Shown in pieces: positions 4,577 through 15,744 of a DNA stretch of 21,339 bases. Every line of letters begins with the position of its first letter. Position 1 is the stretch's first letter. The notes beneath the pieces are model-generated. The model saw only the letters and a program-made list of their open reading frames with translations, did no database searches and had not been told where the DNA came from. The translations under genes were made by a program, and so were the position numbers. The DNA comes from a virus: positions 1 to 21,339 of the IMG/VR virus record IMGVR_UViG_3300006735_000323; one strand, given 5' to 3'.

Positions 4577-4606
4577 GTTATATATTAAAGTTCAATTTTT
4601 GTTTAT
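4577..4606 (-). promoter_or_regulatory. Candidate phage promoter element (copy 3)
   Basis: Minus strand: ATAAACAA, 10 bases, then TTAATATATAAC, ending 6 bases before the ATG at 4570 and overlapping the tape-measure stop codon. If TATATA acts as a -10 box, transcription would start at or next to the ATG, giving a nearly leaderless message. Shared with three other gene starts. Confidence 0.4.
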
Positions 4607-7140
4607 AGGGTGCTTTGTAAATCAAGTTCTGACTGTAAAGCTTGTGCGTTACTAATATCTGTTTCTACTACAAACGCCTGTACTGGTGGCTGTTCATTAC
4701 CAGCTGCACCGAAGTTTATTCTAGGCACAGCACCAGCACCCATATCATCATCTACACCACCAACATCATCTACACCACCTTCACCACCACCACCACCACT
4801 AACACCTAAAGCGCCTTTAGCTTGCGCTACACCAGCAAATACAATAGCTAACATTTGTGCTACTAGCATAGGTGTTACCACTGGCGCACCTGGACCAGCA
4901 GCAGCAGCAGCCGATAAAGCAGCAGTATAAGCAGAGCTAATTTGTCTACCTGTATCTATAGCTATTTGTGCAAGTGCTGCTTTCTTTTCTTTTTTCCTTT
5001 GCTTTTCTTCTATTCTGTTTTTTTCTTTATTAAATTTTTCTTCGCTTATTGCACCATTTTTAAACTTCTTTTCTAGTTCGCCTATTTCTTTCTGTGCGCC
5101 TAGACCTGCTATATCTACTATACTGTGCATAGAGCTTAAAGCAAGGTCTGTCATTTTACGTTTGTTTTCTTTTTCTTTTTGTAAATCTTCTGACCTATGT
5201 CTGTCAGTTACTTCATCATATTGTCTTATATACTCTTCTTCTGCTTCTAGTCTTTGTTGATCCGTTAAGCCTTCTATCTCTAATACTTTATCTAAGTGTG
5301 TTTGTAAAGCGTTTAATTCCTTTTCCCTTACGTTTAACTCTTCTACTTCTATATACTTGTAAAACTCAGTCTTGGCTTGCTCTTGCTTATCTATATAACT
5401 TTGTTCTATTGCTTCTAAAGCGTCAGTTTTTTGCTTTTCTAGTTTCGCTGTAGCCTCAGCGTTACCCTGTGCTTTACCTATTAATTCATCATATTTTTCT
5501 TCTGCTAGTCTTATTTCTCTATCTTTAGTTTCTTCAAAGTGTAAGAATAGCGATTCGTCAGCTTGTTTCTGTAATATTTCCTTTGTGTCTATTGCTCCTT
5601 GTTCTGTTTCATATATTTGCTTGTTATACTTGTCTATTATAGCTTGTTTATCAGCGTTAAAGCTGTCTGTTATAGCTAAATTTTTATTTAAAGATTCTTC
5701 TGTATACTCTATTTGTTCATCAGTAATAGCAATTACTTCTTCGCCTGAGGCTTTTGTTATTCTTTCAATATTAGCTAACCCCTCTGCAAAGGCTTCCTGC
5801 TGACTAAAATATTGACTGTTAAGCTGTGAACGTGCTGACATTAATTGAACACTAGTTGTAAATGAATCACTGTATAAATCCTCTATATCCACACCAAATT
5901 TCTCTGCTGTAGCTTTTACTATCTTGCCTATTTGTTCAGATTTCTTTTGTTGAAATTCGTACAATTCTTCCAAGTTTGCAAAATTTTCTCCACCTTGCAG
6001 ACCAACTTTTTCCATTTCTAATTTAGCTGTTTTAGAAAAATTGTCTAATTTTTCTTGATTAGACTTTTCTAATTGCTTATTAGTTTCTTCAAAGTTTCTT
6101 AACTCTTCTTTTTTTATCTCTATATTTTTCTTAGCATTTTTTTGACTTTGTTCTAGGGCAGCTAATTCTTCTTTTTTCTTCTTTTTTAAAAAATCTATTT
6201 GTTCTTGATTAGCCTTTTCTGCATTATCAAATTGTTCATTTAAAGTTCTAGCTGCACGTTTTTTAACATCTATATCTTCATTCTGTAAGTCAATTAATTC
6301 TTGTAGCATTTCTGCCTCTGCCTTTAATTGTTCCTCTCTTTTTGCAGATGCTTCTTTTTGTTGTGCTTCCCTTTCTCTTTCTAATGAGTTTAGATTAGTT
6401 AATTGTTCTGAACGCTGTCCTGTAATCCTTTCGTCAATTTCTGCTAATTTTGTCTTAGCCTCTATTAAAGCTGTTTGTAGGTCTATATTGTCTTTATTTA
6501 GAGCTAACTCCATTTCAGCTAATCTTAGGCTTTCTTGCGCTAAACCTTTTTCATGTTCTAACTGTTCAGCTAAAACCTTACCTAGTTCAAAATTTGCTGC
6601 TATTCTTTCTTCTATACTCAAGCTTTCGTCATCTCTTATTTGTCGCATTAACTCAGCTTCTTTTTGATACTGTAATTGTAGTAACCCTAGTTCAGCTGTT
6701 AATAATTTAACTTTATTTCTTTGCTCTACTAAAGCGTTAGCTGAATCATTAGCTGCGCTTGTAAACCCAAATAAAGACCCAATGACATCAGAAACGACAT
6801 CTATCATAGCCTCTATTACGCCTACTACAAACTCTAAAGCCTTACCTACCGCGTCAAATATTGGTTTTAACTTTAGCATTATACGACTAAAAGCATCTGT
6901 GATTTTTTGATTAGATTGAAATAGTCCTGTTAATTGAGATAGTAAGCCAATGAATAAACCTATCCCTGCTGCCTTAATAGCTAAACCTACTTTTTTAAAA
7001 CCGTTGCTCATAAAGCCTAAGCCTTTTTGTGCTATCTTTCCACCTGTTCCAACGTTTTTTAAACCCTTACCAACTTTATCTATATTTTTTTCAGCTTGTT
7101 TAGTTTCTACGCCTAGTAATATTTTTAGATTTTTAATCAT
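4603..7140 (-). CDS. Tail tape measure protein, 845 aa
   Basis: A long protein with the layout of tape measures. The N-terminus is basic and Gly-rich (1-50), followed by hydrophobic helices (about 52-73 and 95-125: AAGIGLFIGLL and FVVGVIEAMIDVV). A long Glu/Lys/Gln-rich helical and coiled-coil region spans about 135-740. Near the C-terminus is an Ala-rich hydrophobic segment (SSAYTAALSAAAAAGPGAP to MLAIVFAGVAQA), then a Gly/Asp linker (GGGGGEGGVDDVGG) and a short tail (PPVQAFVVETDISNAQALQ). It sets tail length by spanning the tail lumen. At the usual 1.5 angstrom per residue, 845 residues would fit a tail of about 125 nm, suggesting a siphovirus. The start overlaps the stop of a 56-residue gene (ATGA). 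Unusually, capsid genes rather than further tail genes follow it. Confidence 0.88.
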   Translation of the reverse strand: MIKNLKILLGVETKQAEKNIDKVGKGLKNVGTGGKIAQKGLGFMSNGFKKVGLAIKAAGIGLFIGLLSQLTGLFQSNQKITDAFSRIMLKLKPIFDAVGKALEFVVGVIEAMIDVVSDVIGSLFGFTSAANDSANALVEQRNKVKLLTAELGLLQLQYQKEAELMRQIRDDESLSIEERIAANFELGKVLAEQLEHEKGLAQESLRLAEMELALNKDNIDLQTALIEAKTKLAEIDERITGQRSEQLTNLNSLEREREAQQKEASAKREEQLKAEAEMLQELIDLQNEDIDVKKRAARTLNEQFDNAEKANQEQIDFLKKKKKEELAALEQSQKNAKKNIEIKKEELRNFEETNKQLEKSNQEKLDNFSKTAKLEMEKVGLQGGENFANLEELYEFQQKKSEQIGKIVKATAEKFGVDIEDLYSDSFTTSVQLMSARSQLNSQYFSQQEAFAEGLANIERITKASGEEVIAITDEQIEYTEESLNKNLAITDSFNADKQAIIDKYNKQIYETEQGAIDTKEILQKQADESLFLHFEETKDREIRLAEEKYDELIGKAQGNAEATAKLEKQKTDALEAIEQSYIDKQEQAKTEFYKYIEVEELNVREKELNALQTHLDKVLEIEGLTDQQRLEAEEEYIRQYDEVTDRHRSEDLQKEKENKRKMTDLALSSMHSIVDIAGLGAQKEIGELEKKFKNGAISEEKFNKEKNRIEEKQRKKEKKAALAQIAIDTGRQISSAYTAALSAAAAAGPGAPVVTPMLVAQMLAIVFAGVAQAKGALGVSGGGGGEGGVDDVGGVDDDMGAGAVPRINFGAAGNEQPPVQAFVVETDISNAQALQSELDLQSTL

Positions 7141-12948: not shown

Positions 12949-13460
12949 TAGATATTAGGGTTTGAATCAGAAGGGTTTATAGGTGCATTACATAAGTTAT
13001 TAGTATTATTAACTTGTAACGATATAGTAGATGACCAGCCAGTCAAAATATTAGCGAATCTAGCTGTAAAAGGATCAGAATTTATAGGCATTTCTATTAC
13101 CACTTCATTAGCTGCATAACTTGTTTTTTTACCACTATCACCCCCACTAGTTTGTATAGATAGGTTCTGTTTGAAGTCTGCTATAATGTCCTGCGTAATT
13201 TCTAGTGTATTGGTCCATACGTCATTTCTATTACTTAAATCTTCTTTAAGGACATCTAACACAAATACAGTCACAGAATACGTTAAAACGCCTTGCTCTA
13301 TAGTAGCGCTACCTGGTTCACAGTATAGTATCGGAAAGTCTTGTAGGTCCATCTTATTTATATCTACTTCATCTAAGAACCCAGAATGAAAAGAATTTAT
13401 TACGTAGTGATTGTCAGCTACGTTATTAAAGGTTTTTATTATGTTACTAAATGTTACCAT
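12948..13460 (-). CDS. Tail completion / terminator-like protein, 170 aa
   Basis: The N-terminus (MVTFSNIIKTFNNVADNHYV) and the segment 'LDEVDINKMDLQDFPILYCEP' resemble small neck/tail-terminator proteins of Bacteroidetes phages, with an alpha/beta core. A strand (VLTYSVTVFVLDVLKED) and a helix (TNTLEITQDIIADFKQNL) follow. A C-terminal stretch with 'DPFTARFANILTGWSSTISLQV' suggests the final beta hairpin. Its start lies inside the end of the frameshifted chaperone reading frame (14-base overlap). It may cap the tail tube; the assignment is from pattern memory and context. Confidence 0.55.
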   Translation of the reverse strand: MVTFSNIIKTFNNVADNHYVINSFHSGFLDEVDINKMDLQDFPILYCEPGSATIEQGVLTYSVTVFVLDVLKEDLSNRNDVWTNTLEITQDIIADFKQNLSIQTSGGDSGKKTSYAANEVVIEMPINSDPFTARFANILTGWSSTISLQVNNTNNLCNAPINPSDSNPNI

Positions 13461-14213
13461 AGTTATTATTTTCTATACTTGATTTATCCTGCTGGTACGA
13501 TAGGTATGTTAATACCATATACAGTTCCAGGTTTGTTATTTCTTTTATTTTTGTTATATCTTCTAAGCACAAAGAAAATACCACATTATACCACCCCCAT
13601 TTACTAGTTAGTGTAGCGCTTTTTTGTTCATCTTCTTCATCATTTGACGTTCCTTTCTCAAAGACCTGACCAAACCTATTGATAGTGTTCTTCCTAAACA
13701 AAAAAAAAAATTTAAAGCAGCTATTGAAGGTAAAGCAGGAAACTTTAAATATTCGTTTTCTAGCTCTTCACTAGGACTGTAAGACTCTATACTATACCTT
13801 GTTTTAGTTTCTTTTACTATTGGTCTATATAATATGCTCATAATCTTGTGCAAGTTCTTCTGTGCGTCTTTACAATAGCTTTCTATATCTACGTATTCAC
13901 CTAGCGTTATTTCGCTTAGGTTTGGCACAAAACCGTATTTTATACCATTCCATTCTACTTTCTTTTGTAGCTCTTCTGTGCTAGGTTCTTCTTTTAGTAG
14001 GACCGTTAATTCTTTAGCGATCTTATTAATGTCGTTATAACTCATTCTATCCATCACCCCCCTATCAATATTGCACATTATACAAATACATTCTAGATTA
14101 AACTCATCTTTAGAAAGCTTTTTACCTTTCAGTTCTTGAAACTTTCGGTACATTTCTATAGTTACAGCGTTCCAATCTTGTGGGATTTGTAATGTTATTT
14201 CTTCTTTTGCCAT
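13447..14213 (-). CDS. Tail assembly chaperone, predicted -1 frameshift product (about 255 aa)
   Basis: The frame-0 protein (stop at 13608) is followed by an overlapping frame in the -1 register that stays open to TAG at 13447-13449. It has no ATG or good start near the overlap; the nearest start is a TTG inside the T11 run. Its C-terminal residues (LTSKWGWYNVVFSLCLEDIT, then ELYMVLTYLSYQQDK) match a block I associate with the end of tail chaperones in Bacteroidetes phages. This is the lambda G/GT arrangement: a short chaperone, and a longer form with a T-like domain that recruits tail-tube subunits to the tape measure. A slip at 13620-13625 would give 198 + 57 = 255 residues. A slip at the T run (13700-13710) would give a similar length with a different acidic linker. 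Here the chaperone is far from the tape measure (about 6.5 kb). Confidence 0.62.
13608..14213 (-). CDS. Tail assembly chaperone, short form, 201 aa
   Basis: The frame-0 product starts at ATG 14213 after a promoter-like element. The N-terminus (MAKEEITLQIPQDWNAVTIE) and helices (MYRKFQELKGKK, ECICIMCNIDRGVMDRMSY) are followed by a beta segment 'WNGIKYGFVPNLSEITLGEYVDIESY' (about 107-132). The terminal region is FPALPSIAALNFFFCLGR, then a basic helix (LRKERQMMKKMNKKALH). The overall plan, helical with a small beta unit, fits tail chaperones that coat the tape measure before the tube assembles. The basic C-terminal helix ends at the site of the predicted frameshift. Confidence 0.66.
   Translation of the reverse strand: MAKEEITLQIPQDWNAVTIEMYRKFQELKGKKLSKDEFNLECICIMCNIDRGVMDRMSYNDINKIAKELTVLLKEEPSTEELQKKVEWNGIKYGFVPNLSEITLGEYVDIESYCKDAQKNLHKIMSILYRPIVKETKTRYSIESYSPSEELENEYLKFPALPSIAALNFFFCLGRTLSIGLVRSLRKERQMMKKMNKKALH
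13620..13626 (-). other. Candidate -1 ribosomal slippery site (CAAAAAA)
   Basis: In the mRNA sense the frame-0 codons are AAC AAA AAA GCG CTA CAC TAA. Lys-tRNA on the second AAA can slip back one base and re-pair fully with AAA, joining the -1 frame (AGC GCT ACA). The position, three codons before the short-form stop, parallels lambda G/T. Confidence 0.45.
13700..13710 (-). other. 11-T homopolymer: alternative slippage site
   Basis: The coding strand has 11 consecutive Ts (frame 0: AAT TTT TTT TTT TGT). One inserted T, or a -1 slip, also joins the second reading frame. Runs this long are prone to polymerase slippage and to sequencing error. Confidence 0.4.
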
Positions 14214-14218
14214 TTGTA

Positions 14219-14247
14219 GTATATATAAAAAGTTAATATTCGTTTAT
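14219..14247 (-). promoter_or_regulatory. Candidate phage promoter element (copy 4)
   Basis: Minus strand: ATAAACGA, 12 bases, then TATATATAC, ending 5 bases before the ATG at 14213 and overlapping the terminase stop. It aligns gap-free over 29 bases with the copy at 1075-1103. It heads the tail module. Confidence 0.42.
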
Positions 14248-15413
14248 AATATGTAATACTTACCACTATAATTAGTAGTTAGCTTATTCAAGGCGATATA
14301 TCTAACAGCGTCTATTATATGGTCTTGCTGGTTAGTAGCAGGCTTATTTACTATCTGACCGTTTCTATCCGTAAGCCATTTGTAGTATTTAAACTCATGT
14401 AGTGCGTTTGTACTATTCTTAGTTATATGTAGCTTAAAACGTCTTAAAACGTCTATCCCCATATTTATACTGTCAGCACCTTTACGAGCAGGAAACATTA
14501 AGAATCCCATACGTCTAATCTCTTCCCCACTCTTAGGCTCTGCTGAATCGTATATTATTTCTGTTCTATTGCTTACGTTTAATTCCCTTAGCTTTAAAGC
14601 TATATCTTGATTAGTTAACCCCTTACTATATAATAGCTCATTTATGTACAAACTATCATTTAATTTATACACTTCTACTATTGCTGTGGGGTCGTTACTA
14701 TACCCAAAGTCCATACCGAGTGAAACTAGATTTGCATTTGCAGGCACTTCGTTAGCTATTTCAAACTGTCTGAAAATAGTTTCTGTAGGCTGTGCCATAT
14801 CACCCAGTCCGTATATTTGCCAGTAATTACTATCTAATTCTTTTAGTCTTTCTATTTCCTTAATGGTTTCTTCTGGTAAAAAAGGGTTGTCTAAATAGGT
14901 AGATTTAATAAATGTGCAGTCATCCCTATTCATTACTTTATCATATATCCAGCTGTACGGATCACTAGGATTAAAGTCTAAATAGATGTTTTCTGTACAC
15001 CTCAACGACAACTGAACGAAATCTTCCATAGTGAACTCTGTGCTTTCATTCATCCATAGGACAGCTCTCTGCCTACCTCTGACCTTATCTGGCATATCCA
15101 CAGAAATAAACTCTATTAGATTGTTATTTAGCTTATAAGTAAGTTCTGATTTATTATGCTTGCTAGGATTGTATAAATTATGATGTTCTAGTATATTAAA
15201 GAAGTCTCTATAAGCACTAGATTTAAGTGCAGGTAAAGTCTTTCTACATATTGTATATACCTTACCTTGTTCTTGTAACGCTTTTAAAATGATTAACTGT
15301 GCTAAAGAATAAGTTTTACTACTTCTAGTACCCCCTTGATTAACGACTATTCTAGTAGTAGCGTTAAGGTTTTTCTGTAGAACTACTGTCCCCTTTAGGT
15401 TTAACGATTTCAA
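14244..15413 (-). CDS. terL: Terminase large subunit, 389 aa
   Basis: The packaging motor ATPase and nuclease. Walker A is GGTRSSKT (27-34). Walker B is AVLWMNE (117-123), with the likely catalytic Glu at 123. A coupling-like segment follows (LDFNPSDPYSW). The RNase-H-like nuclease has acidic residues at D235 (GMDFGYSNDPTA), D289 (IIYDSAEP) and D364/D368 (DHIIDAVRY). Length is on the short side but complete. The start is TTG at 15413, two codons after an in-frame TAG, with no in-frame ATG before about residue 108, past Walker A; so TTG or another non-ATG start must be used. It overlaps the small-subunit gene by 50 bases, consistent with coupled translation. The enzyme acts with the portal, which here lies about 14 kb away. 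Confidence 0.93.
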   Translation of the reverse strand: MKSLNLKGTVVLQKNLNATTRIVVNQGGTRSSKTYSLAQLIILKALQEQGKVYTICRKTLPALKSSAYRDFFNILEHHNLYNPSKHNKSELTYKLNNNLIEFISVDMPDKVRGRQRAVLWMNESTEFTMEDFVQLSLRCTENIYLDFNPSDPYSWIYDKVMNRDDCTFIKSTYLDNPFLPEETIKEIERLKELDSNYWQIYGLGDMAQPTETIFRQFEIANEVPANANLVSLGMDFGYSNDPTAIVEVYKLNDSLYINELLYSKGLTNQDIALKLRELNVSNRTEIIYDSAEPKSGEEIRRMGFLMFPARKGADSINMGIDVLRRFKLHITKNSTNALHEFKYYKWLTDRNGQIVNKPATNQQDHIIDAVRYIALNKLTTNYSGKYYIL

Positions 15414-15744
15414 TTTCTATCTTTTTTATTTCTTCATCATTAGAAGTTAGATTTATATTCTGCTGCTGTATATAACCTCTCTTATGTCCTTTATGCTGTA
15501 AGTAAAATATAATACTTCTTTCTTTTTCCTTTTGTATATTCTTAAATAACTGGCTTTCAACAAAGTCTAGTTTTACATTATCTATTTCGTCTACTTTCTT
15601 TTTAAATACTTCATCTTCTTTATACCATTTGTAGAAACTAGACCTGCTTATATTTGCTTTAGTACAAGCTGTAGATACTATACCTAATGAATTTTCTAAG
15701 CTTTCTAAAAGCATTTTTTTCTTTATGTGTTCTTTTTTGTCCAT
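15364..15744 (-). CDS. terS: Terminase small subunit, 126 aa
   Basis: A DNA-recognition subunit of the packaging motor. The N-terminal region has a helix-turn-helix (LLESLENSLGIVSTACTKAN, then ISRSSFYKWYKEDEVF; about 13-48), typical of phage TerS DNA-binding domains. A helical oligomerisation region (FKKKVDEIDNVKLDFVESQL) and the 'IIFYLQHKGHKRGYIQQ' segment follow; a 'KHKG.krGY' motif is common in this family. The C-terminus is a charged tail (KPKGDSSSTEKP). It lies directly before terL with a 50-base overlap, and 10 bases after the ParB-like gene. Confidence 0.85.
   Translation of the reverse strand: MDKKEHIKKKMLLESLENSLGIVSTACTKANISRSSFYKWYKEDEVFKKKVDEIDNVKLDFVESQLFKNIQKEKERSIIFYLQHKGHKRGYIQQQNINLTSNDEEIKKIEIEIVKPKGDSSSTEKP

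Follow-up and report, generated by a model that had tools for sequence, protein, structure and literature searches.

Phage lambda shifts reading frame near the end of gene G by means of a ribosomal heptamer. Accounts of the G/GT frameshift, which is taken to be a general feature of long-tailed phages, usually describe it as ribosomal and conserved. The lambda G and GT tail assembly chaperones and the ribosomal −1 frameshift behind them have been reviewed (PMC5009743). Another tail gene, that of P2 gpE (E+E′; phrog_103, phrog_166), has an oligo-T slip site and also shifts in the −1 direction. Transcriptional slippage, on the other hand, is used by dnaX of Thermus thermophilus and by IS elements (PMC5009743, PMC3711429).

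The DNA analyzed here, referred to as the window, is a stand-alone 21-kb viral record (IMG/VR record IMGVR_UViG_3300006735_000323, positions 1 to 21,339). Like lambda G/GT, it has in its tail gene block a single gene that would give a short and a −1-extended form. Unlike in lambda, the site is a run of T residues (T9–T11 across the family) at which a long stretch of dual coding opens. The gene comes directly after that of the large terminase TerL and precedes the tape measure by several genes. The oligo-T site, the −1 direction, the tail gene setting and a weak match to phrog_166 are shared with P2, which has T6 followed by G, whereas the family described here never has fewer than nine Ts. The features in common with dnaX and IS slippage are a homopolymer of at least nine A or T residues, early stops in the alternative frames and no need for RNA structure, although those systems are a cellular gene and transposases and this one is a putative tail chaperone. 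From the sequence comparisons set out below, the gene in the window probably gives rise to two nested proteins, a putative G/GT-type chaperone pair, through RNA polymerase slippage at its T11 run. The broader proposal, that in a large family of Bacteroidota tailed phages the ratio of the two chaperone forms is set by RNA polymerase slippage on a run of nine Ts or longer and not by a ribosomal frameshift, is put forward a little more cautiously, as the better bet.

The overlapping frames and the T run

The minus strand of the window carries a late gene block (Table 1), in which the 201-aa ORF is separated from the probable tape measure gene by four genes (ORFs of 170, 216, 498 and 1166 aa), with a prohead protease following the tape measure. 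As described in the initial annotation, a −1 frame runs across part of the 201-aa ORF and carries the sequence WGWY...ELYMVLTYLSYQQDK; it proved to be open from 13767 to a stop at 13447. That this frame has no normal start, also stated there, needs a qualification, as a TTG at 13701, on the 3′ edge of the T run, formally qualifies as one, but it is limited to the immediate clade of the window. A slip at the T run or at the A6 tract alike would yield a fused product of 255 aa. With entry at the T11 run, the junction is predicted to read ...IAALNFFF-LFRKNTINRFGQVFEKG..., and not MNKK-SATLTSK as had been expected, and the predicted tryptic peptides are FPALPSIAALNFFFLFR, which spans the junction and would be specific to the long form, and FPALPSIAALNFFFCLGR for the short form. 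The next gene begins within the end of the −1 extension (13447–13460), and its translation may be coupled to that of the long form.

Table 1. Positions of the late-block features in the window.
Feature	Position	Strand	Remarks
Small HTH protein	15364–15744	−	Probably small terminase subunit
Terminase large subunit TerL	14244–15413	−	Terminase_3; immediately upstream of the 201-aa ORF
Frame-0 ORF, 201 aa	13608–14213	−	Short (G-like) product of putative tail-assembly chaperone gene
T11 run	13700–13710	−	AAT TTT TTT TTT TGT in frame 0; conserved, predicted slip site
In-frame heptamer T TTT TTT	13704–13710	−	Inside the run; could also serve ribosomal −1 slippage
−1 frame C-terminal extension	13447–13701	−	84 codons plus stop; predicted to be read only after the shift
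TAG ending the +1 frame	13694–13696	−	Just after the run, within TTTAGG invariant in near relatives
Dual-coded overlap	13608–13699	−	T run to frame-0 stop; purifying selection indicated on both frames
A6 tract	13620–13625	−	Not conserved; rejected as slip site
KWGWY block	13588–13602	−	Core of the −1 extension
Next gene, 170 aa	12948–13460	−	Start overlaps end of the −1 extension
Probable tail tape measure protein	4603–7140	−	Downstream, same orientation; phrog_18891, 8.6e-5

A first set of 17 close relatives was fetched, one of which (L017) diverges before the run. The other 16 all carry the −1 frame, have a T10–T11 run at the same codon and in the same register (16/16) and keep the −1 frame from the T run through KWGWY to its end, or, for L004, to the end of the contig only. 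Wider searches were made with alignments of the fused protein, and one search used patterns from frame-0 peptides alone and was therefore not biased toward the −1 block. Altogether 387 loci reach the site (the window included, and some sharing a contig), representing 333 distinct sequences, which group into about 108 lineages when very roughly 75% identity is used, with the relatives that have the T run extending down to about 25% identity and including the cultured Nonlabens phages. The run was present at every one of the 387 loci, as T9 in 291, T10 in 89 and T11 in 7, and no T7 or T8 run was seen at the site; since the surveys had lower limits of five to seven Ts, shorter runs would have shown up. 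A KWGWY-type block in the −1 frame goes with the run across the family. The register of the run relative to frame 0 varies among the relatives, and the length differences, from 9 to 11 Ts, preserve the relation between the frames.

Differences were counted by codon position of frame 0 in 71 independent pairs. The 60 codons ahead of the run gave 227/119/787, the overlap as a whole gave 91/237/194 and its first 30 nt gave 30/53/72. Since the second codon position of frame 0 coincides with the third of the −1 frame, both frames are, by this comparison, read from the run onwards, with dual coding beginning right after it (first 30 nt versus upstream, p about 2e-15). The overlap of the two frames is far beyond chance, as the −1 block is conserved among those relatives whose sequence extends to it. 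The pattern indicates that the frameshift occurs at the T run family-wide and that the −1 frame, entered there, is translated as a fusion. With the overlap conserved, both frames under selection and the slip site invariant, the comparative evidence argues that, through a change of frame, one gene yields a short protein and a longer version extended at its C terminus. Alignment with relatives had been named as a check in the initial annotation; both frames proved to be conserved in the overlap, and the −1 frame downstream of it as well, which backs the earlier idea of a 255-aa fusion by −1 recoding in a two-form, G/GT-like gene.

How the frame may be changed

The fusion could also be produced elsewhere in the gene, and the site originally proposed was the A6 tract three codons before the frame-0 stop, where C AAA AAA G is indeed seen and where ribosomal −1 slippage (C AAA AAA) would yield the 255-aa fusion. 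An A6 at most 30 nt from the frame-0 stop is present in only 10 of 328 distinct relatives, versus a T run at 387 of 387 loci, and it is missing near the stop in most of the 16 close relatives. Selection on the −1 frame already acts far upstream of the A6. The frame-0 stop falls 3′ of the WGWY codons in 201 of 326 relatives, in which a slip near the stop could not make the product. By its rarity, the position of the stop and the upstream constraint, the A6 is excluded family-wide and is a most improbable slip site; an A-rich ribosomal heptamer does not describe this gene family, contrary to the view that the A6 fits the lambda pattern better than the upstream T run. The fusion hypothesis holds, the A6 site does not, and the T run poses the question of whether the ratio of products is controlled at the level of transcription.

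Another alternative is two separate proteins, with the −1 ORF having its own start. Candidate starts are the TTG in the window, an ATG overlapping the frame-0 stop in the Nonlabens phages, which are annotated as having two proteins with a TAATG overlap, and an ATG before SKWGWY in one T9 clade. A conserved start of this kind, named in the initial annotation as something that would refute the fusion, is not what the family has: local starts do occur in some clades, but ATG, GTG and TTG are all absent between the run and WGWY in 213 of 326 relatives, and the −1 frame is conserved right up to the run. Independent initiation is accordingly unlikely, with most relatives having no start codon, and only marginally more credible than the A6. 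Hardly any weight at all attaches to a homopolymer sequencing error or to phase variation by indels in the run, which is suggested by a T10 locus with fused frames (L344) next to its near-identical T9 counterpart (L359), since this is one exception in 387 loci, and the same frame relation is found in all other contigs and in two cultured genomes. L344 (1001–1747), with both frames in one ORF where L359 has the usual two, is either a natural or an assembly single-base variant, and it spells out the predicted long product.

In the mechanism favored here, RNA polymerase would slip on the T run and add one U in a fraction of the transcripts (U12 instead of U11), and ordinary translation of these would give the 255-aa long form with its KWGWY domain. 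Unslipped mRNA would give the 201-aa short form in frame 0, and transcripts shifted in the opposite direction would lead to an immediate stop. The same run could also be used by the ribosome. The −1 frameshift would then be programmed, as it is for lambda G/GT and P2 E+E′, with tRNA-Phe slipping in tandem at U UUU UUU and the extra Ts only adding efficiency or encoding conserved residues; this is a possible, if rather doubtful, explanation. Runs of at least nine Ts necessarily contain an in-frame T TTT TTT, so ribosomes may slip there too, and a ribosomal slip on U UUU UUU would result in the same 255-aa protein as an extra U added by the polymerase. The heptamer (of the X XXY YYZ type) is present in all relatives, T TTT TTT is a known ribosomal slip motif (PMC4066793), and the annotated shift site of P2 gpE uses T6 (GGT TTT TTG). 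U_UUU_UUY is an efficient motif in E. coli, and about 61% of heptamers need no stimulator in order to shift (PMC4066793).

A heptamer alone, however, would permit T7, T8 or U_UUU_UUC, the last being a motif on which E. coli ribosomes also slip well (PMC4066793), and none of these occurs in the roughly 108 lineages. Among the 333 distinct sequences there are never fewer than nine Ts and never a C at position 7 of the heptamer, which is T in 333/333, and this lowers the likelihood of ribosomal slippage. For 65 lineages a C at that position would alter neither protein and would leave U_UUU_UUC as a ribosomal motif, yet it is never seen, compared with C at 128 of 341 similar sites in the rest of the overlap where the change is likewise silent in both frames; this test is weaker with product codon odds (P 0.009 at 108 lineages, 0.24 at 31). 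From the codon usage of the family, and assuming independent lineages, about 82 of 108 lineages would be predicted to have not even an in-frame heptamer, and T TTT TTT is seen in all. Ten sequences were folded and compared with shuffles, and no stimulatory RNA structure was found downstream of the run (z −1.2 to +1.2); inspection by eye noticed no Shine-Dalgarno-like stimulator.

An A or T homopolymer of at least nine, a criterion of programmed transcriptional realignment, is found at 387 of 387 loci (T9–T11), although nine Ts is not an absolute threshold, since E. coli polymerase slipped 5–10% on T7/T8 in one study (PMC6260861). The +1 frame stops 0–3 codons after the heptamer (5th–95th percentile of 333; median 2), and this quick stop, which closes the frame that single-base deletions would open, could be a by-product of dual coding. 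There were four register changes on the tree, and compensation between the Ts upstream and downstream of the heptamer gave 1e-6 by lineage and 0.18 when only independent changes were counted. Some of the length of the run may be maintained because both frames encode hydrophobic residues there. Because of the nine-T floor, the invariant T, the lack of RNA structure and the immediate +1-frame stop, slippage by the polymerase is considered the likelier route and slippage by the ribosome the less likely one, and both could operate together. A single T-to-C change that preserves the ribosomal motif would tell the two apart. In the literature searched, which took in a minority of subscription papers, no tail chaperone was described as using transcriptional slippage. 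If the switch between chaperone forms does occur at transcription, what is conserved would be the ratio of the products rather than the means of decoding, and this ratio would be subject to whichever RNA polymerase transcribes the late genes.

Protein identity, hosts and annotation

A G/GT-type role in tail assembly is suggested by anatomy, that is, by two nested products and a gene between TerL and the tape measure. The 201-aa protein matches the profiles phrog_32199 (6e-15) and phrog_166 (0.0028), the latter a “tail protein” family that is weakly matched by 27 of 48 members (best 4.6e-5) and is matched by P2 gpE at 4e-7; a comparison of the gene family with P2 gpE by hhalign was not significant. 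AlphaFold gave a confident model of the 201-aa protein (pLDDT 87.9), and the −1 extension folded poorly on its own (pLDDT 59). No significant match to the chaperone candidate was obtained in PDB searches by sequence or fold, Pfam and NCBIfam searches gave nothing significant, and a BFVD fold search gave significant E-values for uncharacterized phage proteins only. Flavobacterium phage 6H (L413:10048–10927) encodes a protein with weak similarity in fold, R9VW65 (191 aa), and the sequence after its gene, which carries no annotation, is open in the −1 frame; the gene has no T9 run and may recode by another route.

A first search of genome contigs gave nothing, and a second gave two metagenome-assembled genomes (MAGs), of a Flavobacterium sp. 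and of Bacteroidetes, in which two relatives were located. Together with the Nonlabens phages, these relatives make Bacteroidota hosts a fitting assignment. The cultured Nonlabens phages P12024S and P12024L have a frame-0 protein that is 28% identical, a T9 at the homologous place and a −1 frame with SFRERL... and KWSWY/KWGWY. The pair of genes after TerL in these phages (phrog_32199 and phrog_38404) has the same architecture as in the window and is annotated as two unrelated hypothetical proteins. A simple annotation rule, in which TerL is followed by an ORF of about 200 aa with a run of at least nine Ts and then by a KWGWY block in the −1 frame, would unite two such “hypothetical proteins” across hundreds of viral contigs. 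In P12024S, genes 38 and 39 (L019:3995–4689) are the two frames of one gene, and phrog_32199 and phrog_38404 its two halves.
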